From Artocarpus heterophyllus (taxonomy: Eukaryota > Streptophyta > Magnoliopsida > Rosales > Moraceae): a stretch of 64,000 nt of DNA. The notes beneath the pieces are model-generated. The model did no database searches, was not told where the DNA came from, and was given only the letters and a program-made list of their open reading frames with translations. The translations under genes and the position numbers were made by a program. This document shows, one piece after another, positions 8,867-60,083 of this stretch. Within the stretch, counting starts at the first letter, position 1. Each line of letters starts with the position of its first letter. The stretch covers positions 24,264,392 to 24,328,391 of the forward strand of contig CM046338.1 of the NCBI GenBank assembly GCA_025403435.1, in the 5' to 3' direction.

Positions 8867-11204
8867 ATGTCTAAAAACGCTTTATCATCGATACTTGACA
8901 AAAACCTGTTAACTGGAGAAAATTATAATGATTGGAAATGGAACCTGGATATCGTTTTGTCCTTTAACAAACTGAAATATGTGCTGACAACCCCTTGTCC
9001 TCCCGAGCCTACGGGAGACTCAACTAATGAGCAATTTCAAGCGTATGATTGCTAGAAAGATGCTAATGATCAGGCCCGCTACTATGTTATGGCTAGCATA
9101 AACAACGTGCTGTAGGCACAACATTAGGATTATGAGACTGTGAATCAGATCTTGGATAATCTTGAGGATATGTTTGGAGGCCAAGCCATAACAAAGCGGC
9201 AAGGGGCACTTTGAAAACTCTTAAACTGTAGACAGAGGCTGAGGACATCTGTAAAGGAGCACATGATGTTGGTCATGGGTTACCTTGTTGAGGCTCAAAC
9301 CAATGGAGCCGACATCGATGCTGAAACTCAGATGACTATGGTCTTTAAGACTCTGTCTAAAGAATTTATTCCATTTAGAGCTACTTTTAATTTAAGTAAT
9401 AGACGAGATATGACCTTGACATTATTAATGAAATAGTTACAGGAGTTCGAACAGCTGATCAGGAAGTCTCCTACGGGTGGAGAGGCCAACATGGTAGCTG
9501 CTTCTGGTTCTAATCACAACTCTGGGAATGGAAAGAAGCAACGGGCCAAAAATAGGAAGGCTTTTATTCCTGCTACCACCAAGAGCAGGAAGAAGAAGAT
9601 GAAGAACCCAAAGAAGCTTAAGTGCTTCTTCTATGGAAAGGTCGGGCATATTAAGAAGTATTACAAGGACTTCCTTTCCAAAGGATGTAGGTGTGATCTT
9701 CTATATTTAGAAACTTGTTTGGTTGAGGAATCTAGTGACATTTGGGTAATAGATTCTGGTGCAACTAATCATGTTTGTGCTTCTCTGATAGGGTTCAAAG
9801 AAACGAGAAGTCTACTACATGAGGACTTCACGCTTTGGATAGGCGATGGATCTTGGTCTCAGCGAAAGCAGTAGGAGACATCCTTCTTTATGTTGATAAT
9901 TATAGGAATTTATTTTTGCAAGATTATTTTTATGTTCCTAAATTTAAAAGGAATTTAATTTATGTAGTTTGTTTATTTAAAGCTCCTACTTGGTTTCTTT
10001 TAATGCTGAAGTGGTGATTCGTAAAAACAAATCTTTTATCTGTTCTAGATGAATGCAAAATAATCTATATTTTATCAAACCTAAGATGGACTTATTGCTT
10101 AATGCTGATATGATTGATAATAACTCTAAAAGACTTAAAACTTCTCACTCTAATAAGACTTATCTTTGGCATTTGCGCCTTGGTCATATTAACCTGAATA
10201 GGATTCAAAGGTTGGTAAGGGATGGACCTTTAAGTCACTTAAAGGTGGAATCTATACCTCAATGTGAATCTTGTTTGGAGGGTAAAATGACCAAAAGACC
10301 ATACGGGTCTAAAGGCAATAGGGCCGAAGGGGTTCTAGAACTTGTGCATAGTGATGTTTATGAACCGATGAACATTTGGGCACGAGGAGGGTATGAGTAC
10401 TTCATCACTTTTATTGACGATCACTTAAGGTATGAGTATGTGTAACTGATACACCACAAAAGCGAAAATTTTAAGAAGTTCAGGGAGTTTCGGGCTGAAG
10501 TGGAAAAGCAATTGGGTGACCCATAAAGGCACTTCGATCCGATCGAGGTGAGGAATACCTTTCTGATGAGTTCTTGGGACACTTATTGGAGAATGGGATT
10601 TTATCCCATTTGACTGTGTCGGGCACTCCGTAGTAGAATGACGTAGCGGAGAAAAGGAATAGGACTTTGTTAGACATGATTAAGTCCATGATGAGTTATT
10701 CATCATTGCCTTTATCCTTTTGGGGATATGCACTGCAAACCGCATGTTATCTTTTGAACAATGTGCCTTCAAAATCGGTCCCTAAAACTCCTCACGAGTT
10801 GTGGACAGGTAGGAAGACACCCTTAAACCATATTTGCATATGGGGATGTCCAGCTCATGTCCTATTTAAGGATTGGAATAAGTTGGAAGCACGTTCAAAA
10901 GTTTGCATGTTTGTAGGATATCCAAATGGGACTAAAGCGGGTTATTTTTATAACCCAAAGGAAAATAAAGTTGTGGTTTCAACTAATGTAACTTTCCTTG
11001 AGGATAGTTACAGGGACGACTTTAAACCTTGGAGCAAAGTGGTGCTTGAGGAGTTAAAGAGTGATTCGATCACTTTGGAGGTTCTGAATGAAACCGTTTC
11101 GATCTATGTAGAAAAACCAAACGAACCTGAGCAACAACCTAAGGGGCTTTGGCATAGTGGGAGGATCGGGCATCAACCTGAGAGGTATATGTTCAATGGG
11201 GAGG
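8867..11204 (+). pseudogene. Copia B gag-protease-integrase, broken
   Basis: Gag starts MSKNALSSILDKN at 8867, giving the capsid-like NYNDWK and DNLEDMFGG blocks with several stops. A Lys-rich segment follows, then a decayed zinc knuckle (CFFYGKVGHIKKYY lacks two Cys) near 9622-9663. The protease motif DSGATNH is near 9751. GAG-pre-integrase (LWHLRLGHINLNR) starts near 10162, with integrase at about 10340-10760 (frameshifted) and its C-terminal region to 11204. Frame is lost at several points. LOG-RT copy 1 sits immediately downstream, and RT resumes at 19550. It is inactive. Confidence 0.88.
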
Positions 11205-13173
11205 TGTGACACCCGTTATTCTCCTAACGGGTATTGAGGTAATTAAATTAATTTTTAATGTATAAAAAAAAATTGCTTCATTTAAATTTATTTTATAATA
11301 TTTACTTTTATCTATTTTTAAGTTTGCTAAAATTCTCCTATATTTATTTAGTATGATTACTAAAAAGCCTTAGAACTTCTAATAAATATCAAAAATGTCA
11401 TATTGACATTATGTGTGTTAAAGTCTTTAGATGAGACATAAGGATATCTTTTCCAACTACTCTTGACCCTCATTTTCTTTATTTCCTCCGTGACATGCTT
11501 CAACATGTCTCCTCTATAATTGTTTCTATCACTTCTTTTCAAAGACTTCATCTTTTCTTCCTTTCTCTTCCACGGTTCCCACACTCTTCTTCTCATTTCT
11601 TTGCTGAAGCAAAATACTTAGAGAACTTCTTCAAGGCAGCCATAAAAATCAGCCACCATCACCTCCATTTGAGCAAGAATTTCAGTCATACCGAAGTAAA
11701 GGAACCTGTTTTGAAGCCATTTCAAGCTTCCAACTAACCATAATCCGAGGTTAGAATCTTATGAACAAATTTAGTCTTTCATTTATAAATTTTCTTTTAT
11801 ACTAAAGGATTATTCAAATTTGCGTTCTTAAACCTAAGTATATGTTTGTTGCTATTTTGGAGCATATGTATGAAGTCTAAGTGTATATGCCCTAGACAGA
11901 AAATTTATATTGTTAAACTTTATAATACCTCTATGGGCAGTGGTTATTTCTTGAAATTCTAAGATTAAATTAAAATAAATCTTATGAATGTAGTTGTATG
12001 TTGTGCTTTAGTTTTAATTGTCCTTATGCACGCCTTAGGATCAAGGGAGTATGGAGCTAACGTTAATTGATTCCAGGATTAAGAGACTGTTGATAAGCTT
12101 AAAAGGTAGGGATTCTATTACTCATCTTTTGTGAGGTTTTTATAGAATTAAAATTGATTGTTTTGCCGCAATATATATATATCTATGTTGAACTGATATT
12201 ATATGTGTATCACATATGAAACTATGACATGGACTCGTCTTGTATTGTACGGCGAGGAACATAATGAATTGACACATGTTATAAATTGAGAAGCATGGTT
12301 AGGAAAATTAACTCTATTAATAATGATTTAATATAGAGAAATTGTGAGACATGAAAAGGGCGACGGTTACGTCCTTGGGCATGAATACCCTAAAAGGTAA
12401 AATAGGGGGAAGGTGATGACGCTTCCTTGGGTTGAAAGTCCCAGAACACACTGTACAGGAATTGATTTGGTGAGGACTCGGGGCTTGATGTCCCCTCACC
12501 GGAACACCCTTGGAATGTTTATAGGGTGATCAAGTGCGCCCATTTGGGTTTCGATGAGTTGAGTGATACTCAATTTAACATGGATACCTAGGAATAATGA
12601 TTGGTAATATTTGTATAAATGTGTAATTATGACACTTGGTAATGATTAACTACGGTATCCATAAGATGTGATCATAATAAACCTCATAATCTGGAATATG
12701 ATGTAACCTACTAACCATGCAGATTTTAATGTGGTAATGATAAAAACCTAAAGGTGAGTAATGGCTTTCTCTACTGAGCATAGTGTTGCTCATTCCCTTA
12801 TGTTTATATCTTTTCAGGACTCACTAAGTGTGAGGTGGCTACGAGAAATATAGTTGAGGAAGCGATGTAACTATATTACATTGGGACTGCTCAATTGTAA
12901 AGAATGTTCTTCATGATAATGTAAGCATCAATTGTTACTTTCTGTGACTGTATTACAATGTGATGAGGGTTAAAATGATGATGACAACAGTTTATATTAT
13001 TAAATTTAAGGTGCTACATTAAACTGTGGTTTAATTGTCGTTTATATTTTTATTTTTGAGTTGAGAGTTTTCATTTAAGTCCCGGGCAAATTTTATTTTT
13101 AAGGTGTTACTTTTATTATTTATTTTTATTTTATCTCATTAAAAACTGTTAACCCCCATATAGGGGCGTTACA
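11205..13173 (+). repeat. LOG-RT copy 1, 5' LTR
   Basis: Length is 1969 bp; it is near-identical to 17574-19544. Relative to the LTRs of copy 2 it lacks about 384 bp (equivalent of roughly 52308-52692). The lost segment is bounded by the short repeat TTATGAAT, suggesting deletion in an ancestor. It contains a Tekay-like block ending CTTTTCAGGACTCAC near 12810-12827. Opposed 78- and 80-codon open frames inside all four LTRs are treated as spurious. Confidence 0.95.
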
Positions 13174-13180
13174 GAATTTT

Positions 13181-13192
13181 TGGTATCAGAGC
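13181..13192 (+). other. LOG-RT copy 1 primer-binding site (tRNA-iMet)
   Basis: TGGTATCAGAGC lies 7 bp after the LTR end and is identical in copy 2 (57712-57723, minus strand). It shows that the element is replicated by reverse transcription. Confidence 0.95.
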
Positions 13193-14797
13193 CTAGGTTC
13201 GGTTAACCTAGGGAGTGTAGCACCACTTTAAAAAAATATATTTTTGAGATGGTTTTGAAACTGAATTTTCATTGTCATCATCAAAATGAACCTTCACATT
13301 GATTTATACAGTCTAGAAGGATGTAACATGGAAAGGCCATAGAATGAAAATATTAATAGTTATATGAGTACAATAATTATATAGAAGGAAAGTATTAATA
13401 GTTATAAGGGAATGATAATTATATGGAATGAGTTTATAAGTAGAATGCTTACGAGAGATTCGTATAATATTAGGATCTATAAGCATATCTAATTCGTATA
13501 AACGATGAGAAATTCGTGTAGATACGAGGATTTAAGAGCCTTTTGTCTCGTGAAAAACAATAAAAAAAAAATATAAGGCTTGATTTATTGATTTTAAAGT
13601 TTGGCATAGATATGCCAAATTTTTCGTAATTGATTCAAACCTAAGTAATGATTATGTGTGGATTCGATGGAGCACATAAGCGTCAATATCTTTTCTTAAA
13701 AGTTCTATTTATTTGAGGAATATGATATAAGTTGGGAATCATGGTGTTGAATTTTGAGAGAGATAAATGTTAGACTTTTGGTCTGTTGAGACTGTGTAAA
13801 GTCTAGAATGCATGAATCTCAAAATTGGAATATTTTGTTACGTACATTGTATTTAAGTGTATCAGTGAATCTTTATATATAGATGCAATAGAAAAATGAT
13901 CAATAGGAGTTTCCTTAAGTAAATCATAATACTTAAGGCACTTATAATAATTTTGGATAATTACGATAAAATGTTTAAGTTTTAGATGTTTAGATGTGAA
14001 TCTTTTGGTTACCTAAGGTTTTGTTATATGAGGAAATTATATATTGTATAAGTAGAATTGTGAGGATTGTAGATGTTCTTAAGTAGTAACATCAAGTGTC
14101 TTTGTTCGTTGATATGGTCTACGTTGAAAGACGTAAATCGTATTGATTTCAAGGTTAGTCACATTCTAAACCCTTGGTAGCAATGATGATGAATCCATTG
14201 ATAGATGTTAAGTATTATGAATAACATATGGGTGTATGTATTGTTCAATAAGGTTTTGATTAAAACAAAATTATTTGAGTTGCTGGAAGATTATGTTGTT
14301 ATGAAATGATTTTAAATATCATTCAAGAAGATCCTTGTTGTCGTTAAATTAGATTTGTTGTTTATAGTTAACTTTATCTATAGTGGGCTTTGAATTGGGT
14401 TTAAGATTCATACGAATTGGTTTTCAATTTTATGTTTGTTATTTAACTCGTTCTAAATGTGTTAAGGCTCGAAACAACCTGACCATTTTCAACTTAGAAC
14501 ATTTGGGCCTAGTTCAAATCCTAAATCAGTTTGATTCACACTGTCTCTCCCACGTGGTCTCTATACGTGTCATATACAGTGGTTTAATTATTGTTTACAT
14601 ATACGTTTACTGTACATAAGAGCTTATTTCTCCGAGTTCACTTTTTCTCTCTTAATTTGTTATTTTCTCTCTAAATCGCAAATCCTCTTCTTTTTCATTA
14701 AAAATTCTTCTTTTCCTCAAAAAGAAGAAGGAATTCTAGGATTCTGCAATTTACTATCTTAATTTTTCCTTTCTATTTACTCTTCTTTCATCTCATC
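13193..14797 (+). other. LOG-RT copy 1 leader with possible internal promoter
   Basis: 1.6 kb with no gene. It is alignable to 56241-57711 of copy 2, which lacks about 134 bp corresponding to roughly 13870-14003, between two GTGAATCTTT repeats. The last 170 bp before ORF1 are pyrimidine-rich (TTTTCTCTCT, CTCTTCTTTTTC), like a plant gene 5' UTR. A small 78-codon frame at 14383-14619 is not intact in copy 2 and is not called. Confidence 0.65.
14551..14556 (+). promoter_or_regulatory. G-box upstream of ORF1
   Basis: A CACGTG core (context CCACGTGG) lies about 245 bp upstream of the ORF1 start and is conserved in copy 2 at 56482-56487. G-boxes bind bZIP/bHLH factors. Together with the pyrimidine-rich stretch before the ATG it could mark a promoter inside the element; that is inference. 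Confidence 0.4.
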
Positions 14798-15319
14798 ATG
14801 GACCCAAAGTACCAACACCTGAGAAAGTATTTCCCATCACTCTCCCAAAAGATTCTCAGAAAGAAATACAAGGCTAGAATTACTCGGTTGTGGATTCTTA
14901 TGCGTTTTGGTATCCCTTGTGATGTGAGAATGTTAATAGAGGGAAAAATCCGTCCGAGTGACTTTAGTCAAGATGTCGGTTTACCAGGAACAGGTACCAG
15001 TCGTAGTGCAATGAAAAGAAGAGCTCGTGCCATCGTGGTCACTTATAACAAATGTGGAAGACAAAATTGTAACGGTAAATGTACTTCACCTGGTTATATG
15101 TCTACGAATAGAGAGGATAAAATAAGGTTTTGTAGGAATGGACTTTCAAAGGAGAACTTGGATAGCATCCATCCTCCTCTCCACGGTCACCCTAGTGGAT
15201 ATGTTCAAGGAGCTATTTTTAAACTCTGGCCTAAATTTTATACAGAAAGACAACGCCTCAGGAATATGGTATTTCTAGATCCTGTTTGCCAAGCCATAAG
15301 AAAACTGGATGGGGAATAA
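14798..15319 (+). CDS. LOG-RT ORF1: basic cysteine-cluster protein (copy 1)
   Basis: 173 residues. The start ATG has A at -3 and G at +4. Residues 1-35 are Lys/Arg-rich, an IPCDVRMLIEGKI block is at 39-51, and a basic run SAMKRRARAI is at 70-79. A Cys cluster follows: Cys86, Cys91, Cys95, with a fourth Cys at 83 in copy 2 (CX2CX4CX3C) that is Tyr here. PGYMSTN is at 98-104. The last 60 residues have HPPLHGHPSGY but no recognised domain. The order (helical PxDVxxLI block, RSxxAxKRRA, Cys cluster, PG) resembles the small cysteine-rich nucleic-acid-binding proteins of carlaviruses, judged by pattern only. It is longer than those proteins. It occupies the gag position but has no gag features. It is open in both copies, differing at 5 residues. 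Function is unproven; nucleic-acid binding is the best guess. Confidence 0.75.
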   Translation: MDPKYQHLRKYFPSLSQKILRKKYKARITRLWILMRFGIPCDVRMLIEGKIRPSDFSQDVGLPGTGTSRSAMKRRARAIVVTYNKCGRQNCNGKCTSPGYMSTNREDKIRFCRNGLSKENLDSIHPPLHGHPSGYVQGAIFKLWPKFYTERQRLRNMVFLDPVCQAIRKLDGE

Positions 15320-15966
15320 GTCATCGCTCTATAAAGGTTATTTAGTCTTTACTTATTTGAAGCAGTTTTAGCTGATGTTCAACAGTTTGTGTTTTTCTTT
15401 TACTCAGAATATTTGCTTTTGTGTTTGAAATAATTGTGATTATTAGATTGATACAGTAAGTGTTAATATCTTATTTAATTTATGATTTTCTTAAATATAT
15501 ATATATATAATAAAATATATTATCTTATCAGACACGTCACATACGGTACAGTAATATGTTTGAATTTTGAAAAACTTATCCAGATATTTCAAGATTTCTG
15601 TCTCAAATTTCAAAAGTTCTACAGTATTTGTCGTTTATATTAAATTTCTAGACTTGGTGTATATTTGTCAAAAAGTCTACAGTTGTGTCATGAGGGTCTT
15701 CTGTCGAATTGTTCTCAATTGTCAAAAGTTATACAATTAGAGTCTAATCTTTTTCAAAAAGTGAATCAGATTTTCTGTAAACTATCAATCACCTTATCTT
15801 ACTTTCTTATCCGCACAAGATTTTGTTTAAATCTTTGGATTACCTTTTCATTACCTACTCGTCTATCTCTTTAGCCCTTTTTGTATATTTCTCATCTTTA
15901 AAAACTTATGTAGAACCCGAAGTCTAAGTGGAGCAGACATTAAGCAACCACTTCTATAAACCAAAT
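15320..15966 (+). other. Spacer between ORF1 and LOG in copy 1
   Basis: About 650 bp, AT-rich, with a short (TA)n at about 15496-15510. It is very similar to 55076-55718 of copy 2. A 69-codon frame (15665-15874) is present in both but has no recognised domain and non-ATG initiation, so it is not called. No clear splice signals tie ORF1 to LOG; how LOG is expressed is unknown. Confidence 0.55.
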
Positions 15967-16545
15967 ATGTCTACCTCCCAGTCCACGAAGAAAATAAAGA
16001 ATGTCTGTGTCTTTTGTGGTTCCAGCCTTGGAAAAGATAAAGCTTATTTAGAAGCTGCAAATCACTTAGGGCAAGTCCTAGCACGCAAGAAGATTAACAT
16101 AATCTATGGGGGTGGTAGTATAAAAATGATGGTAAATATGGCACTAGCAGCTAGGTCTAGTGACGCTACTGATGTAAGAATTTGGCCTCATATTCCAGTT
16201 GAAGGAAACCTTTGTAAGGAAGCCATAGGTAAGGGAGAAGGAGTCAGGAGTATCCCTAAAAATTTTAAAGACATAATCTATAATTCTGATGCTTTTATAG
16301 CATTACCTGGTGGTCTAGGCACTCTTGAGGAAATATTTATAGTTGCTTGTGGGCAATTGTTGGGCTTTTATTCCAAACCTTTGGGACTGCTGAACGTAAA
16401 GGGTTTTTATGACGGTCTTTTGAAATTTCTAGATTACGCTGTGGAAGAAAACATCACTACAGAATCGGAGAGACAAATCTTTGTTACTGCTTCAACAGCT
16501 GAGGAATTGATAGATAAAATGCAAATCATACATCCAGAATCCTGA
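15967..16545 (+). CDS. LOG-like protein carried by retroelement, C-terminally frameshifted (copy 1)
   Basis: 192 residues from the first ATG (15967); an upstream in-frame GTG at 15928 is not a plausible plant start. LOG enzymes (cytokinin riboside 5'-monophosphate phosphoribohydrolases, Rossmann-like, cytosol/nucleus) release active cytokinin base. Seen here: VCVFCGSS at 13-20, YGGGS at 47-51, SDAFIALPGG at 107-116, the signature PGGLGTLEE at 114-122, and KPLGLLNVKGFYDGLL at 137-152. The catalytic Glu of PGGxGTxxE is kept. The Arg-Lys usually 16 residues before PGG is replaced (PKNFKDII), and the loop after YGGGS lacks the usual glycines. A 1-bp T insertion at about 16543 creates a stop that removes the family's C-terminal SKLxWE segment, which copy 2 retains. 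Introns of host LOG genes are absent, pointing to RNA-mediated capture. Activity is doubtful. Confidence 0.88.
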   Translation: MSTSQSTKKIKNVCVFCGSSLGKDKAYLEAANHLGQVLARKKINIIYGGGSIKMMVNMALAARSSDATDVRIWPHIPVEGNLCKEAIGKGEGVRSIPKNFKDIIYNSDAFIALPGGLGTLEEIFIVACGQLLGFYSKPLGLLNVKGFYDGLLKFLDYAVEENITTESERQIFVTASTAEELIDKMQIIHPES

Positions 16546-17559
16546 CACTGCAACATCCAAGCTTGAATGGGAAAGGGAAAGCCGGGAGCGGCCAATTGAT
16601 TTGAATCTCCATCTGTAATCTTTTTGTTTTATCTTTGGCATGTAGGCATGTGTGTCCGTATTTCGTGTGTTACGAATAACCGTTTGCCTTGTATTCTGTG
16701 TTTCTTGTGGTACGTTGTTGTTCAATCTTTTAGATTCATTGAGCCTAATGCCGGGATGGCTGGATACGGAGTACTTGATGCTCTCGAAACGCATCCTTCT
16801 TAAGGTCCGATCTTTTGTTTATCGATGTTTTTGTATCCTCTAAGCATGCATGATATGGATAGCTGGTATACGGAGTGCCTTGTACTCTCGAAACGTATCT
16901 GTATTATGTTTGTAATGTGTAATATTCTGTTAATATTATGTGGAAGTACCAGAGTCAGTTATGGGGATATTCCATATGAAATATGAGTATATTATTTGGG
17001 TTGAATTTTTGTGTCATGAGGATAGCTGTTTAATGAAAAATATGTCGGGTATGTTTGCAACTCTGAGATTCCGTTTAATATCTCTATGAGTAAGTTTAAT
17101 GTATAGTTTTGAATAAAAGTGTTTGTGATATATGTTTTATGATTATGTTTTAGTTTATTAGTTGAGGTATGAAATCAAATATATTTGACTTTTCCTTACT
17201 CAAAAAGGAAAAGGAACCTAAAGATGAAGTATATAAAATTTCTCTGGCAATCTCCTTAAATGTGATTGTAAATCACAGTCCATGGACAATGAAGGACTGG
17301 AATCATGGTATGGTCAATATGTAGGCCTGATCAGATTCTTAGACTATTATACGGTGTTATAAGTTGAAACTTGTCAGAAATACTCTCATTGAGGGATTTA
17401 GGAGTAAGATTTATTATGCAAGTAAATAAGTGGAGATACGATAACTTAAATTTGGAGGACAAACAACATTAACGGTTTAGACTCAGAATTGGAATCATAG
17501 TGGAATCATAATTTTTACTAGTATTGCTAGAATTGAAATTTCGAGGACGAAATTTCTTT
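16546..17559 (+). other. LOG-RT copy 1, 3' untranslated region and gypsy-type end
   Basis: There is no further gene. The lost LOG C-terminal codons lie at 16546-16617 in another frame. Two imperfect direct repeats of about 38 bp (ATACGGAGT...CTCTCGAAACG...ATC) lie at about 16758-16796 and 16862-16900. Near the end, 17535-17556 (AATTTCGAGGACGAAATTT) resembles the terminal coding/PPT-proximal segment of Tekay/Del gypsy elements. Confidence 0.7.
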
Positions 17560-17573
17560 AAGGGGGGTAGAGC
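17560..17573 (+). other. LOG-RT copy 1 polypurine tract
   Basis: AAGGGGGGTAGAGC lies directly before the 3' LTR. It is the plus-strand priming site and is identical in copy 2 (53471-53484, minus strand). Confidence 0.92.
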
Positions 17574-19544
17574 TGTGACACCCGTTATTCTCCTAACGGG
17601 TATTGAGGTAATTAAATTAATTTTTAATGTATAAAAAAAAAAATTGCTTCATTTAAATTTATTTTATAATATTTACTTTTATCTATTTTTAAGTTTGCTA
17701 AAATTCTCCTATATTTATTTAGTATGATTACTAAAAAGCCTTAGAACTTCTAATAAATATCAAAAATGTCATATTGACATTATGTGTGTTAAAGTCTTTA
17801 GATGAGACATAAGGATATCTTTTCCAACTACTCTTGACCCTCATTTTCTTTATTTCCTCCGTGACATGCTTCAACATGTCTCCTCTATAATTGTTTCTAT
17901 CACTTCTTTTCAAAGACTTCATCTTTTCTTCCTTTCTCTTCCACGGTTCCCACACTCTTCTTCTCATTTCTTTGCTGAAGCAAAATACTTAGAGAACTTC
18001 TTCAAGGCAGCCATAAAAATCAGCCACCATCACCTCCATTTGAGCAAGAATTTCAGTCATACCGAAGTAAAGGAACCTGTTTTGAAGCCATTTCAAGCTT
18101 CCAACTAACCATAATCCGAGGTTAGAATCTTATGAACAAATTTAGTCTTTCATTTATAAATTTTCTTTTATACTAAAGGATTATTCAAATTTGCGTTCTT
18201 AAACCTAAGTATATGTTTGTTGCTATTTTGGAGCATATGTATGAAGTCTAAGTGTATATGCCCTAGACAGAAAATTTATATTGTTAAACTTTATAATACC
18301 TCTATGGGCAGTGGTTATTTCTTGAAATTCTAAGATTAAATTAAAATAAATCTTATGAATGTAGTTGTATGTTGTGCTTTAGTTTTAATTGTCCTTATGC
18401 ACGCCTTAGGATCAAGGGAGTATGGAGCTAACGTTAATTGATTCCAGGATTAAGAGACTGTTGATAAGCTTAAAAGGTAGGGATTCTATTACTCATCTTT
18501 TGTGAGGTTTTTATAGAATTAAAATTGATTGTTTTGCCGCAATATATATATATCTATGTTGAACTGATATTATATGTGTATCACATATGAAACTATGACA
18601 TGGACTCGTCTTGTATTGTACGGCGAGGAACATAATGAATTGACACATGTTATAAATTGAGAAGCATGGTTAGGAAAATTAACTCTATTAATAATGATTT
18701 AATATAGAGAAATTGTGAGACATGAAAAGGGCGACGGTTACGTCCTTGGGCATGAATACCCTAAAAGGTAAAATAGGGGGAAGGTGATGACGCTTCCTTG
18801 GGTTGAAAGTCCCAGAACACACTGTACAGGAATTGATTTGGTGAGGACTCGGGGCTTGATGTCCCCTCACCGGAACACCCTTGGAATGTTTATAGGGTGA
18901 TCAAGTGCGCCCATTTGGGTTTCGATGAGTTGAGTGATACTCAATTTAACATGGATACCTAGGAATAATGATTGGTAATATTTGTATAAATGTGTAATTA
19001 TGACACTTGGTAATGATTAACTACGGTATCCATAAGATGTGATCATAATAAACCTCATAATCTGGAATATGATGTAACCTACTAACCATGCAGATTTTAA
19101 TGTGGTAATGATAAAAACCTAAAGGTGAGTAATGGCTTTCTCTACTGAGCATAGTGTTGCTCATTCCCTTATGTTTATATCTTTTCAGGACTCACTAAGT
19201 GTGAGGTGGCTACGAGAAATATAGTTGAGGAAGCGATGTAACTATATTACATTGGGACTGCTCAATTGTAAAGAATGTTCTTCATGATAATGTAAGCATC
19301 AATTGTTACTTTCTGTGACTGTATTACAATGTGATGAGGGTTAAAATGATGATGACAACAGTTTATATTATTAAATTTAAGGTGCTACATTAAACTGTGG
19401 TTTAATTGTCGTTTATATTTTTATTTTTGAGTTGAGAGTTTTCATTTAAGTCCCGGGCAAATTTTATTTTTAAGGTGTTACTTTTATTATTTATTTTTAT
19501 TTTATCTCATTAAAAACTGTTAACCCCCATATAGGGGCGTTACA
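17574..19544 (+). repeat. LOG-RT copy 1, 3' LTR
   Basis: Length is 1971 bp. It is identical by eye to the 5' LTR apart from two extra A in the run near 17632-17642. Near-zero LTR divergence indicates recent insertion. Confidence 0.95.
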
Positions 19545-19549
19545 GGAGG

Positions 19550-51117: not shown

Positions 51118-53470
51118 TGTAACGCCCCTATATGGGGGTTAACAGTTTTTAATGAGATAAAATAAAAATAAATAATAAAAGTAAAACCTTAAAAATAAAA
51201 TTTGCCCGGGACTTAAATGAAAACTCTCAACTCAAAAATAAAAATATAAACGATAAATAAACCACAGTTTTAATGTAGCACCTTAAATTTAATAATATAA
51301 ACTGTTGTCATCATCATTTTAACCCTTAACACATTATAATACAGTCACAGAAAGTAACAATTGATGCTTACATTATCATGAAGAACATTCTCAACGATTG
51401 AAGCAGTCCCAATGTAATATAGCTACATCACTTCCTCAACTATATTTCTCGTAGCCACCTCACACTTAGTGAGTCCTGAAAAGATATAAACATAAGGGAA
51501 TGAGCAACACTATGCTCAGTAGAGAAAGCCATTACTCACCTCTATCATTACCACATTAAAATCTGCATGGTTAGTAAGTTACATCATATTCCAGATTATG
51601 AGGTTTATTATGATCACATCTTATGGATACCGTAGTTAATCATTACCAAGTGTCATAATTACACATTTATACAAATATTACCAATCATCATTGTTCCTAG
51701 GTATCCATGTTAAATTGAGTATCACTCAACTCATCGAAACCCAAATGGGCGCACTTGATCACCCTATAAACATTCCAAGGGTGTTCCGGTGAGGGGACAT
51801 CAAGCCCCGAGTCCTCACCAAATCGATTCCTGTACAGTGTGTTCTGGGACTTTCAACCCAAGGAAGCGTCATCGCCTTCCCCCTACTTTACCTTTTAGGG
51901 TATTCATGCCCAAGGACGTAACCGTCGCCCTTTTCATGTCTCACAATTTCTCTATATTAAATCATTATTAATAGAGTTAATTTTCCTAACCATGCTTCTC
52001 AATTTATAACATGTGTCAATTCATTATGTTCCTCGCCGTACAATACAAGACGAGTCCATGTCATAGTTTCATATGTGATACACATATAATATCAGTTCAA
52101 CATAGATATATATATATTGCGGCAAAACAATCAATTTTAATTCTATAAAAACCTCACAAAAGATGAGTAATAGAATCCCTACCTTTCAAGCTTATCAACA
52201 ATCTTTTAATCTTGGAATCAGTTAACGTTAGCTCCATACTCCCTTGATCCTAAGGCGTGCATAAGGACAATTAAAACTAAAGCACAACATACAACTACAT
52301 TCATAAATAAATCATGTGTAAACCTATCTTACTAGTATGCCATTAAAGCTTTTATATAAATCTCTTTCGAATACCACAGTAAACAATTTTTGTCTTAACA
52401 CAATATAAAATGTGAACAAGTAATCTATATGTTTTAGTCCCTAATAAGATTCATCAATCACTTAGGATAATATTGGAAAGGTTGCAAGACATTAAAGAAT
52501 TAGGTGGTGAGCAAAGATGGGTTCTTGGTTCAGGTTAGCAGCTGGTATACCATAACAAACTGGCAGATTTACTAGTTTCCAATACAAAAATTAAATAATT
52601 CTTAGAAAATAAAATACAACTCCGATTTAGGTTTATGATAGCTCGTTAGAAAGCCTAGGATGCTACTTTTCAAATATGCAAACCAATTCATAAAATTCAT
52701 TTTAATTTAATCTTAGAATTTCAAGAAATAACCACTGCCCATAGAGGTATTACAAAGTTTAACAATATAAATTTTCTGTCTAGGGCATATACACTTAGAC
52801 TTCATACATATGCTCCAAAATAGCAACAAACATATACTTAGGTTTAAGAACGTAAATTTGAATAATCCTTTAGTATAAAAGAAAATTTATAAATGAAAGA
52901 CTAAATTTGTTCATAAGATTCTAACCTCGGATTATGGTTAGTTGGAAGCTTGAAATGGCTTCAAAACAGGTTCCTTTACTTCGGTATGACTGAAATTCTT
53001 GCTCAAATGGAGGTGATGGTGGCTGATTTTTATGGCTGCCTTGAAGAAGTTCTCTAAGTATTTTGCTTCAGCAAAGAAATGAGAAGAAGAGTGTGGGAAC
53101 CGTGGAAGAGAAAGGAAGAAAAGATGAAGTCTTTGAAGAGAAGTGATAGAAACAATTATAGAGGAGACATGTTGAAGCATGTCACGGAGGAAATAAAGAA
53201 AATGAGGGTCAAGAGTAGTTGGAAAAGATATCCTTATGTCTCATCTAAAGACTTTAACACACATAATGTCAATATGACATTTTTGATATTTATTAGAAGT
53301 TCTAAGGCTTTTTAGTAATCATACTAAATAAATATAGGAGAATTTTAAAAAAATTTAAAAATAGATAAAAATAAATATTATAAAATAAATTTAAATGAAG
53401 CAATTTTTTTTATACATTAAAAATTAATTTAATTACCTCAATACCCGTTAGAAGAATAACGGGTGTCACA
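51118..53470 (-). repeat. LOG-RT copy 2, 3' LTR
   Basis: 2353 bp, TGTGACACCCG...GGGCGTTACA on the minus strand; same length as 57731-60083 and no difference noticed by eye. Segment absent from copy 1: about 52308-52692. Confidence 0.95.
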
Positions 53471-53484
53471 GCTCTACCCCCCTT
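53471..53484 (-). other. LOG-RT copy 2 polypurine tract
   Basis: Minus strand AAGGGGGGTAGAGC, adjacent to the 3' LTR. Confidence 0.92.
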
Positions 53485-54424
53485 AAAGAAATTTCGTCCT
53501 CGAAATTTCAATTCTAGCAATACTAGTAAAAATTATGATTCCACTATGATTCCAATTCTGAGTCTAAACCGTTAATGTTGTTTGTCCTCCAAATTTAAGT
53601 TATCGTATCTCCACTTATTTACTTGCATAATAAATCTTACTCCTAAATCCCTCAATGAGAGTATTTCTGACAAGTTTCAACTTATAACACCGTATAATAG
53701 TCTAAGAATCTGATCAGGCCTACATATAGACCATATCATGATTCCAGTCCTTCATTGTCCATGGACTGTGATTTACAATCACATTTAAGGAGATTGCCAG
53801 AGAAATTTTATATACTTCATCTTTAGGTTCCTTTTCCTTTTTGAGTAAGGAAAAGTCAAATATATTTGATTTCATACCTCAACTAATAAACTAAAACATA
53901 ATCATAAAACATATATCACAAACACTTATATTCAAAACCATACATTAAACTTATTCATAGAGATATTAAACGGAATCTCTGGTTGCAAACATACCCGACA
54001 TATTTTTCATTAAACAGCTATCCTCATGACACAAACATTCAACCCAAATAATATACTCATATTTCATATGGAATATCCCCATAACTGACTCTGGTACTTC
54101 CATATAATATTAACAGAATATTACACATTACAAACATGATACGGATACGTTTCGAGAGTACAAGGCACTCCGTATACCAGCTATCCATATCATGCATGCT
54201 TAGAGGATACAAAAACATCGATAAACAAAAGATCGGACCTTAAGAAGGATGCGTTTCGAGAGCATCAAGTACTCCGTATCCAGCCATCCCGGCATTAGGC
54301 TCAATGAATCTAAAAGATTGAACAACAACGTACCACAAGAAACACAGAATACAAGGCAAACGGTTATTCGTAACACACGAAATACGGACACACATGCCTA
54401 CATGCCAAAGATAAAACAAAAAGA
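53485..54424 (-). other. LOG-RT copy 2, 3' untranslated region
   Basis: Counterpart of 16618-17559. It contains the Tekay-like pre-PPT segment (about 53489-53510) and both CTCTCGAAACG direct repeats (about 54146-54185 and 54247-54286). No gene. Confidence 0.68.
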
Positions 54425-55075
54425 TTACAGATGGAGATTCAAATCAATTGGCCGCTCCCGGCTTTCCCTTTCCCATTCAAGCTTGGATGTTGCAGTGTCG
54501 GATTCTGGATGTATGATTTGCATTTTATCTATCAATTCCTCAGTTGTTGAAGCAGTGACAAAGATTTGTCTCTCCGATTCTGTAGTGATGTTTTCTTCCA
54601 CAGCGTAATCTAGAAATTTCAAAAGACCGTCATAAAAACCCTTTACGTTCAGCAGACCCAAAGGTTTGGAATAAAAGCCCAACAATTGCCCACAAGCAAC
54701 TATAAATATTTCCTCAAGAGTACCTAGACCACCAGGTAATGCTATAAAAGCATCAGAATTATAGATTATGTCTTTAAAATTTTTAGGGATACTCCTGACT
54801 CCTTCTCCCTTACCTATGGCTTCCTTACAAAGGTTTCCTTCAACTGGAATATGAGGCCAAATTCTTACATCAGTAGCGTCGCTAGACCTAGCTGCTAGTG
54901 CCATATTTACCATCATTTTTATACTACCACCCCCATAGATTATGTTAATCTTCTTGCGTGCTAGGACTTGCCCTAAGTGATTTGCAGCTTCTAAATAAGC
55001 TTTATCTTTTCCAAGGCTGGAACCACAAAAGACACAGACATTCTTTATTTTCTTCGTGGACTGGGAGGTAGACAT
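54425..55075 (-). CDS. LOG-like protein carried by retroelement, full length (copy 2)
   Basis: 216 residues from the ATG at 55075, within the usual LOG size (about 210-230). It is the same protein as copy 1 except Ala to Thr at residue 178. It runs through the site where copy 1 is frameshifted, ending SDTATSKLEWERESRE... The SKLxWE element is characteristic of plant LOG C-termini, so this is the intact form. The PGGLGTLEE signature is at 114-122, VCVFCGSS at 13-20 and YGGGS at 47-51. As in copy 1, the Arg-Lys upstream of the signature and glycines after YGGGS are replaced, so true phosphoribohydrolase activity on cytokinin ribotides is uncertain. It is single-exon, unlike host LOG genes. Expression would come from the LTR or an unseen internal promoter. 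Confidence 0.9.
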   Translation of the reverse strand: MSTSQSTKKIKNVCVFCGSSLGKDKAYLEAANHLGQVLARKKINIIYGGGSIKMMVNMALAARSSDATDVRIWPHIPVEGNLCKEAIGKGEGVRSIPKNFKDIIYNSDAFIALPGGLGTLEEIFIVACGQLLGFYSKPLGLLNVKGFYDGLLKFLDYAVEENITTESERQIFVTASTTEELIDKMQIIHPESDTATSKLEWERESRERPIDLNLHL

Positions 55076-55718
55076 ATTTGGTTTATAGAAGTGGTTGCTT
55101 AATGTCTGCTCCACTTAGACTTCGGGTTCTACATGAGATTTTAAAGATGAGAAATATACAAAAAGGGCTAAAGAGATAGACGAGTAGGTAATGAAAAAGT
55201 AATCCAAAGATTTAAACAAAATCTTGTGCGGATAAGAAAGTAAGATAAGGTGATTGATAGTTTATAGAAAATCTGATTCACTTTTTGAAAAAGATTAGAC
55301 TCTAATTGTATAACTTTTGACAATTGAGAACAATTCGACAAAAGACCCTCATGACACAACTGTAGACTTTTTGACAAATATACTCCAAGTCTAGAAATTT
55401 AATATAAACGACAAATACTGTAGAACTTTTGAAATTTGAGACACAAATCTTGAAATATCTGGATAAGCTTTTCAAAATTCAAACATATTACTGTACCGTA
55501 TGTAACGTGTCTGATAAGATAATATATTTTATTATATATATATTTAAGAAAATCATAAATTAAATAAGATATTAACACTTACTGTATCAATCTAATAATC
55601 ACAATTATTTCAAACACAAAAGCAAATATTCTGAGTAAAAGAAAAACACAAACTGTTGAACATCAGCTAAAACTGCTTCAAATAAGTAAAGACTAAATAA
55701 CCTTTATAGAGCGATGAC
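55076..55718 (-). other. Spacer between ORF1 and LOG in copy 2
   Basis: Counterpart of 15320-15966, nearly the same length (643 vs 647 bp). No recognised gene. A 69-codon frame at 55168-55377 is again open with one residue change, but has no motif. Confidence 0.55.
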
Positions 55719-56240
55719 TTATTCCCCATCCAGTTTTCTTATGGCTTGGCAAACAGGATCTAGAAATACCATATTCCTGAGGCGTTGTCTTTCTGTATAA
55801 AATTTAGGCCAGAGTTTAAAAATAGCTCCTTGAACATATCCACTAGGGTGACCGTGGAGAGGAGGATGGATGCTATCCAAGTTCTCCTTTGAAAGTCCAT
55901 CCCTACAAAACCTTATTTTATCCTCTCTATTCGTAGACATATAACCAGGTGAAGTACATTTACCGTTACAATTTTGTCTTCCACATTTGTTACAAGCGAC
56001 CACGATGGCACGAGCTCTTCTTTTCATTGCACTTCGACTGGTACCTGTTCCTGGTAAACCGACATCTTGACTAAAGTCACTCGGACGGATCTTCCCCTCT
56101 ATCAACATTCTCACATCACAAGGGATGCCAAAACGTATAAGAATCCACAACCGAGTAATTCTAGCCTTATATTTCTTTCTGAGAATCTTTTGGGAGAGTG
56201 ATGGGAAATACTTTCTCATGTGTTGGTACTTTGGGTCCAT
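55719..56240 (-). CDS. LOG-RT ORF1: basic cysteine-cluster protein (copy 2)
   Basis: 173 residues, 97% identical to copy 1 (changes at residues 8, 35, 82, 83, 114). It carries the complete cluster CNKCGRQNCNGKC at 83-95 (CX2CX4CX3C), preceded by the basic SAMKRRARAI. This suggests a zinc-binding nucleic-acid-binding module; copy 1 lacks the first Cys. The layout resembles viral cysteine-rich nucleic-acid-binding proteins (Carla_C4 / Viral_NABP families), judged by pattern only. The alternative is an unrecognised host gene fragment captured with LOG. It lies 643 bp upstream of LOG on the same strand. Confidence 0.77.
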   Translation of the reverse strand: MDPKYQHMRKYFPSLSQKILRKKYKARITRLWILIRFGIPCDVRMLIEGKIRPSDFSQDVGLPGTGTSRSAMKRRARAIVVACNKCGRQNCNGKCTSPGYMSTNREDKIRFCRDGLSKENLDSIHPPLHGHPSGYVQGAIFKLWPKFYTERQRLRNMVFLDPVCQAIRKLDGE

Positions 56241-57711
56241 GATGAGATGAAAGAAGAGTAAATAGAAAGGAAAAATTAAGATAGTAAATTGCAGAATCCT
56301 AGAATTCCTTCTTCTTTTAGAGAAAAAGAAGAATTTCTAATGAAAAAGAAGAGGATTTGCGATTTAGAGAGAAAATAACAAATTAAGAGAGAAAAAGTGA
56401 ACTCGGAGAAATAAACTCTTATGCACAGTAAACGTATATGTAAACAATAATTAAACCACTGTATATGACACGTATAGAAACCACGTGGGAGAGACAGTGT
56501 GAATCAAACTGATTTAAGATTTGAACTAGGCCCAAATGTTCTTAGTTGAAAATGGTCAGGTTGTTTCGGGCCTTAACACATTTAGAACGAGTTAAATAAC
56601 AAACATAAAATTAAAAACCAATTCGTATGAATCTTAAACCCAATTCAAAGCCCACTATAGATAAAGTTGACTATAAACAACAAATCTAATTTAACGACAA
56701 TAAGGATCTTCCTGAATAATATTTAAAATCATTTCATAACAACATAATCTTCCAGCAACTCAAATAATTTTGTTTTAATCAAAACCTTATTGAACAATGC
56801 ATACACCCATATGTTATTGATAATACTCAACATCTATCAATGGATTCATCATCATTACTACCAAGGGTTTAGAATGCGACTAACCTTGAAATCAATACGA
56901 TTTACGTCTTTCAACGTAGACCATATCAATGAACAAAGACACTTGATGTTACTACTTAAGAACATCTACAATCCCCACAATTCTACTTATACCATATCGA
57001 ATTTCCTCATATAACAAAACCGTAGGTAACCAAAAGATTCACTGATACACTTAAATACAATGTACGTAACAAAATATTCCAATTTTGAGATTCATGCATT
57101 CTAGACTTTACATAGTCTCAACAGACCAAAAGTCTAACATTTATCTCTCTCAAGATTCAATACCATGATTTTCAACTTATATCATATTCCTCAAATATAT
57201 AGAACTTTTAAGAAAAGACATTGACACTTATGTGCTCCATCGAATCCACACATAATCATTACTTAGGTTTGAATCAATTGCGAAAAATTTAGCATATCTA
57301 TGTCAAACTTTAAAATCAATAAATCAAGCCTTATATTTCTTATTGTTTTTCACGAGACAAAAGGCTTTTAAATCCTCGTATCTATACGAATTTCTCATCG
57401 TTTATACGAATTAAATATGCTTATAGATCCAAATATTATACGAATCTCTCATAAGCAATTTACTTATAAACTCATTCCATATAATTATCATTCCCTCATA
57501 ACTATTAATACTTTCCTTCTATATAATTATTGTACTCATATAACTATTGATATTTTCATTCTATGGCCTTTCCATGTTACATCCTTCTAGACTGTATAAA
57601 TCAATGTGAATGTTCATTTTGATGATGACAATAAAAATTCAGCTTCAAAACCATCTCAAAAATATATTTTTTTTAAAGTGGTGCTACACTCCCTAGGTTA
57701 ACCGAACCTAG
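56241..57711 (-). other. LOG-RT copy 2 leader
   Basis: Counterpart of 13193-14797 with one 131-134 bp deletion (junction near 57035 at GTGAATCTTTT). The conserved G-box (56482-56487) and pyrimidine-rich stretch before the ORF1 ATG are present. No gene; the 74-codon plus-strand frame at 56790 is not supported. Confidence 0.62.
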
Positions 57712-57723
57712 GCTCTGATACCA
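57712..57723 (-). other. LOG-RT copy 2 primer-binding site (tRNA-iMet)
   Basis: Minus strand TGGTATCAGAGC, 7 bp from the LTR. Confidence 0.95.
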
Positions 57724-57730
57724 AAAATTC

Positions 57731-60083
57731 TGTAACGCCCCTATATGGGGGTTAACAGTTTTTAATGAGATAAAATAAAAATAAATAATAAAAGTAAAAC
57801 CTTAAAAATAAAATTTGCCCGGGACTTAAATGAAAACTCTCAACTCAAAAATAAAAATATAAACGATAAATAAACCACAGTTTTAATGTAGCACCTTAAA
57901 TTTAATAATATAAACTGTTGTCATCATCATTTTAACCCTTAACACATTATAATACAGTCACAGAAAGTAACAATTGATGCTTACATTATCATGAAGAACA
58001 TTCTCAACGATTGAAGCAGTCCCAATGTAATATAGCTACATCACTTCCTCAACTATATTTCTCGTAGCCACCTCACACTTAGTGAGTCCTGAAAAGATAT
58101 AAACATAAGGGAATGAGCAACACTATGCTCAGTAGAGAAAGCCATTACTCACCTCTATCATTACCACATTAAAATCTGCATGGTTAGTAAGTTACATCAT
58201 ATTCCAGATTATGAGGTTTATTATGATCACATCTTATGGATACCGTAGTTAATCATTACCAAGTGTCATAATTACACATTTATACAAATATTACCAATCA
58301 TCATTGTTCCTAGGTATCCATGTTAAATTGAGTATCACTCAACTCATCGAAACCCAAATGGGCGCACTTGATCACCCTATAAACATTCCAAGGGTGTTCC
58401 GGTGAGGGGACATCAAGCCCCGAGTCCTCACCAAATCGATTCCTGTACAGTGTGTTCTGGGACTTTCAACCCAAGGAAGCGTCATCGCCTTCCCCCTACT
58501 TTACCTTTTAGGGTATTCATGCCCAAGGACGTAACCGTCGCCCTTTTCATGTCTCACAATTTCTCTATATTAAATCATTATTAATAGAGTTAATTTTCCT
58601 AACCATGCTTCTCAATTTATAACATGTGTCAATTCATTATGTTCCTCGCCGTACAATACAAGACGAGTCCATGTCATAGTTTCATATGTGATACACATAT
58701 AATATCAGTTCAACATAGATATATATATATTGCGGCAAAACAATCAATTTTAATTCTATAAAAACCTCACAAAAGATGAGTAATAGAATCCCTACCTTTC
58801 AAGCTTATCAACAATCTTTTAATCTTGGAATCAGTTAACGTTAGCTCCATACTCCCTTGATCCTAAGGCGTGCATAAGGACAATTAAAACTAAAGCACAA
58901 CATACAACTACATTCATAAATAAATCATGTGTAAACCTATCTTACTAGTATGCCATTAAAGCTTTTATATAAATCTCTTTCGAATACCACAGTAAACAAT
59001 TTTTGTCTTAACACAATATAAAATGTGAACAAGTAATCTATATGTTTTAGTCCCTAATAAGATTCATCAATCACTTAGGATAATATTGGAAAGGTTGCAA
59101 GACATTAAAGAATTAGGTGGTGAGCAAAGATGGGTTCTTGGTTCAGGTTAGCAGCTGGTATACCATAACAAACTGGCAGATTTACTAGTTTCCAATACAA
59201 AAATTAAATAATTCTTAGAAAATAAAATACAACTCCGATTTAGGTTTATGATAGCTCGTTAGAAAGCCTAGGATGCTACTTTTCAAATATGCAAACCAAT
59301 TCATAAAATTCATTTTAATTTAATCTTAGAATTTCAAGAAATAACCACTGCCCATAGAGGTATTACAAAGTTTAACAATATAAATTTTCTGTCTAGGGCA
59401 TATACACTTAGACTTCATACATATGCTCCAAAATAGCAACAAACATATACTTAGGTTTAAGAACGTAAATTTGAATAATCCTTTAGTATAAAAGAAAATT
59501 TATAAATGAAAGACTAAATTTGTTCATAAGATTCTAACCTCGGATTATGGTTAGTTGGAAGCTTGAAATGGCTTCAAAACAGGTTCCTTTACTTCGGTAT
59601 GACTGAAATTCTTGCTCAAATGGAGGTGATGGTGGCTGATTTTTATGGCTGCCTTGAAGAAGTTCTCTAAGTATTTTGCTTCAGCAAAGAAATGAGAAGA
59701 AGAGTGTGGGAACCGTGGAAGAGAAAGGAAGAAAAGATGAAGTCTTTGAAGAGAAGTGATAGAAACAATTATAGAGGAGACATGTTGAAGCATGTCACGG
59801 AGGAAATAAAGAAAATGAGGGTCAAGAGTAGTTGGAAAAGATATCCTTATGTCTCATCTAAAGACTTTAACACACATAATGTCAATATGACATTTTTGAT
59901 ATTTATTAGAAGTTCTAAGGCTTTTTAGTAATCATACTAAATAAATATAGGAGAATTTTAAAAAAATTTAAAAATAGATAAAAATAAATATTATAAAATA
60001 AATTTAAATGAAGCAATTTTTTTTATACATTAAAAATTAATTTAATTACCTCAATACCCGTTAGAAGAATAACGGGTGTCACA
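57731..60083 (-). repeat. LOG-RT copy 2, 5' LTR
   Basis: 2353 bp, matching 51118-53470 with no visible difference, implying very recent insertion. Confidence 0.95.

Follow-up and report, generated by a model that had tools for sequence, protein, structure and literature searches.

Whether a plant retrotransposon can carry and spread a gene for cytokinin activation is the question raised by positions 11205-19544 of a 64,000-nucleotide stretch of the Artocarpus heterophyllus genome (contig CM046338.1, positions 24,264,392 to 24,328,391, forward strand; hereafter the window). These positions are a real, mobile and multi-copy long terminal repeat (LTR) element with a LOG-family gene. Our analyses indicate that the element is probably a non-autonomous LTR retrotransposon, young and present in many copies, which has neither gag nor pol and carries an accessory cassette of two genes, i.e., the LOG-family gene and a preceding open reading frame (ORF), ORF1, with the functions proposed below.

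Element structure and copies

The LTRs of the element, described as perfect in the original prediction, are alike except for a two-base indel in an A-run, which is the sole difference between the 1969-bp and 1971-bp repeats. The predicted target-site duplication (TSD), primer-binding site (PBS) and polypurine tract (PPT) were located as GGAGG, TGGTATCAGAGC and AAGGGGGG, respectively, and with the paired LTRs they make up the set of features by which LTR retrotransposons are recognized. The features of this copy and of a second full copy in the window are as follows (aa, amino acids):

11200..11204, no strand: left TSD, GGAGG
11205..13173, plus strand: 5' LTR, 1969 bp, with ends TGTGACACCCG...GGGGCGTTACA
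13181..13192, plus strand: PBS, TGGTATCAGAGC
14798..15319, plus strand: ORF1, 173 aa
15967..16545, plus strand: LOG-family ORF, 192 aa in this first copy
17560..17567, plus strand: PPT, AAGGGGGG, just upstream of the 3' LTR start at 17574
17574..19544, plus strand: 3' LTR, 1971 bp
19545..19549, no strand: right TSD, GGAGG
51118..60083, minus strand: second full copy of the family, 2353-bp LTRs without mismatch, GACAC on both flanks
55719..56240, minus strand: ORF1 in the second copy, with a manually assigned start within the frame
54425..55075, minus strand: LOG ORF in the second copy, 216 aa, its start likewise assigned manually

Within the 4.4-kb interior, ORF1 and LOG are the only frames that exceed 108 aa (stop-to-stop frames of at least 45 aa), and no gag or pol was found there, as judged by eye from the frames and by a Pfam scan of ORF1 and LOG. 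This agrees with what had been predicted; by the same judgement, the element lacks the gag and pol that an autonomous Ty3/gypsy element has between its LTRs. We take the PBS to be of the initiator-Met type and the LTR ends to resemble those of chromoviruses, features that can only hint at lineage in an element without reverse transcriptase.

When the 192-residue window LOG was used as protein query against the host genome, which spans 985 Mb in 334 contigs, at least 150 loci were found. Scoring was limited to 150 of 5968 first-look candidates, so that the copy number is a lower bound; each scored locus was free of stops and matched all 192 residues exactly. The 150 listed loci name contigs C1-C9 alone, and the window's own copies, on C12, lie outside that list. 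Twenty of the listed loci, all of them plus-strand picks, were fetched. Two LTRs with 0-5 mismatches were found in 17, of which 15 also had a perfect 5-bp TSD, and the notion that the gene occurs at this locus only is thus rejected. The 17 LTR pairs comprised 11 of a short form (~1.97 kb) and six of a long form (~2.36 kb), which suggests that two sublineages were recently active; in the window, each LTR of the second copy has 387 bp of extra sequence compared to the first. Judged by these LTRs, the insertions are recent and the family is young.

LOG was 216 aa, with the longer tail, in all 20 fetched loci. The first window copy contains one extra base compared to the second, which brings about its early end (192 vs. 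216 aa). ORF1 was 173 aa in 14 of the 20 loci, 137 aa in three, 180 aa in one and missing in two; a Tyr replaces the first zinc-motif Cys in ORF1 of the first window copy, while Cys is found in 17 of 17 sampled copies. By these comparisons, the first window copy is slightly damaged. In the three loci with the 137-aa form (L017, L020, and L022), ORF1 ended at a common stop at codon 138 and the LTRs had 0-1 mismatches, suggesting that a sublineage with a cut ORF1 kept moving. When copies were sought with a query from the non-coding leader instead of LOG, the 40 scored of 2053 first-look candidates were 98-100% identical to it, and 14 of 16 copies chosen in this way contained the 216-aa LOG frame. 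We also noticed four same-strand LOG matches on C9 near 16.537-16.558 Mb at a spacing of 6.62-6.66 kb, or about one LTR plus one interior, a series that looks like a tandem array of elements with shared LTRs.

The LOG-family protein and its active site

The original prediction of an intron-free LOG-like frame accompanied by a second ORF was borne out. The window protein scored 131 bits against TIGR00730, above the curated cut-off of 96.35, and matched Lysine_decarbox of Pfam (E 6.7e-22) and AtLOG3 (PDB 2a33; E 8e-41, ~41% identity), while its structure model (pLDDT, the model's confidence measure, 81.2) had 2a33 as the top Foldseek match (E 2.8e-17). By sequence and predicted fold, the protein belongs to the LOG family. 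It shares with AtLOG3 the fold and the motif PGGxGTxEE, whereas the catalytic Arg and residues of the adenine/prenyl pocket of AtLOG3 are replaced.

More specifically, the motif PGGLGTLEE is whole, with both glutamates kept, while SIPKNFKDI stands for DMHQRKAEM, KMMV for GLMG, and WPHIP for IPKTL. The position of the catalytic Arg is occupied by Asn, and the pocket motif has also lost its M, H, and K. Thus, of the two residues that mark a cytokinin-activating LOG, the Arg of M-H-x-R-K and the Glu of PGGxGTxxE, the Glu is kept and the Arg replaced. The Trp of ITW in AtLOG3 is missing too, as it is in L037, a relative described below. In an alignment of 123 rows (120 listed database matches, the window protein and two Arabidopsis LOGs), the catalytic position is R in 112, N in the window protein and its database twin P0016, and K, Q, P, or C in nine. 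The same-genome relatives L032, L033, L036, and L037 have kept the Arg. The window protein also fell short of the equivalog NF058542 (86 bits, cut-off 300), a comparison in which no plant LOG was run as a control. According to PMC4979012, Arg99, the counterpart of the Arg replaced in the window protein, and Glu122 of the Corynebacterium enzyme are the proposed catalytic residues, and alanine exchange of active-site residues, S19A excepted, led to near-complete loss of activity. Given the loss of the catalytic Arg and nearby motifs, production of active cytokinin is unsupported for the window subfamily; on sequence grounds we consider hormone production unlikely for this subfamily and open for the relatives that keep the catalytic residues. 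Net-zero frameshifts were considered as the origin of the odd active-site half and rejected at the setting used: frameshift-aware alignment (penalty of 12 per shift) was no better against four relatives, nor was it in three controls.

ORF1 and its carlavirus-type relatives

The second ORF, which had not been recognized in the original prediction, probably encodes a virus-type zinc-finger protein, as judged from its profile relatives. By its sequence the protein is small and basic, of the C4 zinc-finger type, and a member of a plant family that is akin to the carlavirus nucleic-acid-binding proteins (Carla_C4/Viral_NABP). With a profile search, 856 proteins were retrieved (E up to 1). As we read it, the precomputed annotation of all 120 listed relatives contained Carla_C4 (PF01623), and the named relatives among the matches listed were from Populus, Xanthoceras, Acer, Hibiscus, Rhamnella, and Orobanche. 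No relatives turned up in three scans of viral_contigs. Of 16 family members scanned at E up to 1, 15 matched Carla_C4 (best E 3.5e-7) and 14 matched Viral_NABP (best E 1.9e-7). The relative on contig L031 passed the Viral_NABP cut-off (34.2 bits, cut-off 23) and missed that of Carla_C4 (19.8 bits, cut-off 20.9). The invariant columns of the family include K73, R74, C86, and C91. ORF1 has the basic stretch plus four-Cys motif of the carlavirus-type proteins: KRRARAIVVTCNKCGRQNCNGKC was found in 14 of 17 sampled copies and all four Cys in 17 of 17. A match to a short-chain dehydrogenase profile (NF006528; E 0.00086, 18.8 bits vs. a cut-off of 430) was rejected as a chance match.

According to PMC12172455, carlavirus proteins of the Carla_C4/NABP type act as silencing suppressors, and that of chrysanthemum virus B is a transcription factor that induces hyperplasia. 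These cysteine-rich, nucleic-acid-binding proteins have a basic stretch followed by a cysteine cluster, as do the members of the ORF1 family. The match of the window ORF1 is limited to residues 63-118 of 173, with the remainder unmatched.

The ORF1-LOG pair in other elements

To look beyond the window family, the host genome was also searched with a Spirodela LOG, P0135, and 150 single-exon places were listed of 5575 candidates; intron-bearing host LOG genes were not among them. The listed places were 45-52% identical to the query, and 111 of the 150 had no internal stops by hand count. Besides the first set of loci, they constitute another population of single-exon LOG frames, one with greater divergence. 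Of the four places fetched, L032, L033, and L036 were beside gag/protease frames, with LTRs shown for one of them, and L037 was in an older member of the window family.

The L033 element measures 11.9 kb and has ATGAA on both flanks and the PBS TGGCGCCGTTGC. Its terminal repeats (~2.1 kb) show 91-98% identity in the pieces that were compared. Its gene order is gag and aspartic protease, then ORF1, then LOG, and no reverse transcriptase or integrase frame was seen in it. Over a length of 7.1 kb, L036 shares 90.7% identity with L033; L032 and L036 have the same gene order as L033, and their element ends lie beyond the fetched stretch, so that LTRs were not covered. L037 is 77.7-81.3% identical to the window element over matching pieces, with the same LTR start and a similar PPT. 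Its direct repeats are 91% alike, its ORF1 contains three stops, and its LOG is open with the Arg kept. On L031 (DAIEQH010000041.1), a contig of 3330 bp, an integrase frame (rve and H2C2) is followed by the ORF1 relative. We take the PBS TGGCGCC of L033 and the integrase end to look like those of Athila. L031 is filed under a metagenome-assembled genome of Candidatus Nomurabacteria; its content is plant-like, and it is probably a plant contamination of that assembly.

The same ORF1-LOG pair is thus found, in the same order, in two unlike surroundings (hereafter shells): the gag-less shell of the window and the gag-bearing shell of L033 with another PBS. No long similarity was found between the window LTR and the L033 LTR. 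Window LOG is ~50% identical to the LOGs of the other shell and was grouped with L032/L033 LOG in a careful tree of 41 rows (support 100/98), by which recent capture of a host gene was rejected. Window ORF1 was grouped with L033, P0002, and P0003 (support 100/99) in a tree whose bootstrap had not settled. Given that the LTRs are unlike while both cassette genes are sisters, either the genes moved together between shells or they stayed while their surroundings were exchanged. The pair was not directly seen outside the host genome. For both the ORF1 relative P0149 and the LOG relative P0074, the longest contig listed is 8723 bp, and the two may share one contig in another plant.

Selection on the two genes

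Between the window and L033, the ratio of nonsynonymous to synonymous change (dN/dS) was roughly 0.26 for LOG and 0.13 for ORF1, and over pairs of 15 open copies the within-family ratio pN/pS of ORF1 was 0.22. Across the deep splits, as estimated from these alignments, synonymous change exceeds nonsynonymous change in both genes. Between the window and L037, dN/dS of LOG was 0.45 overall, with 0.35 for residues 1-50, 1.15 for residues 51-107, 0.11 for residues 108-160, and 0.33 for residues 161-192. Residues 51-107 differed from the rest with a p of 0.0008 on rounded counts and a split chosen after the alignment was seen, and a dN/dS of 1.15 alone does not show positive selection. For the same residues, dN/dS between L037 and L033 was 0.31, which places the burst on the branch of the window. 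For recent LOG variation, counts of 0 nonsynonymous and 11 synonymous changes were set aside because the loci had been chosen for an identical protein and were thus biased; the 16 leader-picked copies were used instead.

Comparison with known elements

The original prediction knew of no described LOG-bearing LTR retrotransposon. Elements of this kind are, however, already published: PMC9289625 reports LOG-type (YgdH) domains in gypsy consensuses from two species of Citrus and, with the filter off, from Populus trichocarpa, and it cites Steinbauerova 2011. These consensuses are like the window family in having a LOG-type domain in dicot LTR retrotransposons. They were found via reverse transcriptase, whereas the window family has no gag or pol; the section in PMC9289625 names no partner gene, whereas window LOG has a virus-type partner and has lost the catalytic Arg. 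The AlkB-bearing gypsy elements of Phalaenopsis (PMC9289625) have likewise acquired an extra domain of a kind found in some plant RNA viruses. Unlike the window family, they carry one enzyme beside a Gag-Pol ORF, and its activity was shown in vitro.

The pol-less Athila elements of Arabidopsis, as described in PMC2410132, have gag and env under purifying selection and show recombination across families. They are non-autonomous with selected extra ORFs, and L033, with gag, protease and extra ORFs, has the same general form. The extra genes of Athila are env-like, in contrast to the zinc-finger nucleic-acid-binding protein and LOG found here, and the window family also lacks gag. In PMC11963269 (Retand elements) and PMC7264820 (extra ORFs), searches by term turned up no YgdH, lysine decarboxylase, cytokinin or carlavirus. 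Paired ORF1-LOG genes were not reported in the titles and abstract starts among the matches listed in open-licence PMC text on LOG, carlavirus/Carla_C4, Athila and retrotransposon topics. The virus-type partner of LOG, the occurrence of one cassette in two unlike shells and the changed active site were not seen in the literature searched and are apparently new; the lack of gag-pol also sets the window family apart.

Proposed explanation and alternatives

In the explanation that we consider probable, a Ty3/gypsy partner would supply the gag-pol proteins in trans. ORF1 may act in the nucleus on behalf of the elements, binding nucleic acids and either opposing silencing or changing transcription, activities that have been reported for carlavirus proteins. 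LOG could have been recruited to shift the cytokinin state in favor of dividing cells, and that of the window subfamily would then have changed into a probably non-hydrolytic relative with a LOG-like fold, for example one that binds nucleotides or associates with host LOG. A wider version is possible, and we advance it tentatively: the pair could be an anti-host module that is portable, in which a LOG-family protein is combined with a zinc-finger protein of viral type that acts as silencing suppressor or transcription factor. The module would have passed intact between LTR shells that are otherwise unlike; its zinc-finger part would be spread over dicots, and in one branch rapid change of the active-site half would have made LOG non-enzymatic. 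The two shells would presumably be one with gag and an Athila-type PBS and one with an initiator-Met PBS and no gag. The zinc-finger gene could have passed from a virus into the elements or in the opposite direction.

Several observations weigh against the probable explanation. No autonomous partner turned up, and no completed dedicated genome search lies behind that. The three cut-ORF1 copies of 20, with their 0-1 LTR mismatches, suggest that a whole ORF1 is unneeded in cis, and the ORF1 frame has been disrupted in L032, L036, and L037. Window ORF1 is below the cut-off for the viral domains (E 0.85 for PF01623 and 0.049 for PF05515), its structure model is too poor for a fold search (pLDDT 48), and L033 ORF1 has Phe for a motif Cys and no match to Carla_C4 or Viral_NABP at E 0.001. 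Loss of the catalytic Arg is not unique to window LOG, as 9 of 121 other rows, P0016 apart, lack it as well. Synonymous divergence from L033 is close to saturation or beyond it (dS 1.5 for LOG, 2.7 for ORF1), which makes those dN/dS ratios rough; dN/dS between L032 and L033 LOG is 0.52; and the 16 leader-picked LOG copies had 13 synonymous and 24 nonsynonymous recent changes, for which neutrality was not rejected (p 0.20), a neutral look that is expected of dead-end copies.

These observations bear on the alternatives in different ways. That both ORFs are useless passengers of an element like a large retrotransposon derivative (LARD), their open frames reflecting youth alone, is consistent with the little time for mutations implied by 0-5 LTR mismatches, with the neutral-looking recent LOG variation, with the movement of cut-ORF1 copies and with the broken ORF1 in three of four fetched relatives. 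We nevertheless regard it as rather unlikely, as the deeper splits favor synonymous change (0.26 for LOG and 0.13 for ORF1 against L033; 0.11 for LOG residues 108-160 against L037) and the gene pair persists in two unlike shells. The original prediction that the element spreads an active cytokinin-activating enzyme is compatible with the LOG fold and TIGR00730 match, the intact PGGLGTLEE with both glutamates and the Arg kept in L032, L033, L036, and L037. It is, however, disfavored for the window protein by Asn at the catalytic Arg and by the loss of GLMG, IPKTL, pocket M/H/K and the ITW Trp, given the effect of alanine exchanges at such residues (PMC4979012), and by the contrast between residues 51-107 and 108-160 in dN/dS against L037 (1.15 vs. 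0.11); we judge it unlikely. An intron-free frame in an LTR element would also be explained if the window element had captured a host LOG gene once and recently. Such a capture is highly improbable, since window LOG groups with the LOGs of the other retroelement family (100/98, ~50% identity) and not with AtLOG3, AtLOG8 or Spirodela LOG, since the older relative L037 also has LOG, and since YgdH-bearing gypsy elements occur in other plants (PMC9289625).

If the module proposed above is real, plant retrotransposons and RNA viruses would have a common counter-host gene, paired in retrotransposons with a hormone-pathway protein, and tuning of cytokinin state or silencing by transposable elements in the cells of transposition would become testable. 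Some plant LOG/LOGL gene models may also be retroelement genes, which matters for annotation because LOG genes are read as hormone genes.

Genomic surroundings

The element at 11205-19544 was inserted into a copia-type pol frame, with Pfam matches to SH3_retrovirus on its left and RVT_2 on its right. A large part of the window resembles nested copia-type elements, present as several related copies whose direct and inverted duplicates are mostly 76-90% alike.

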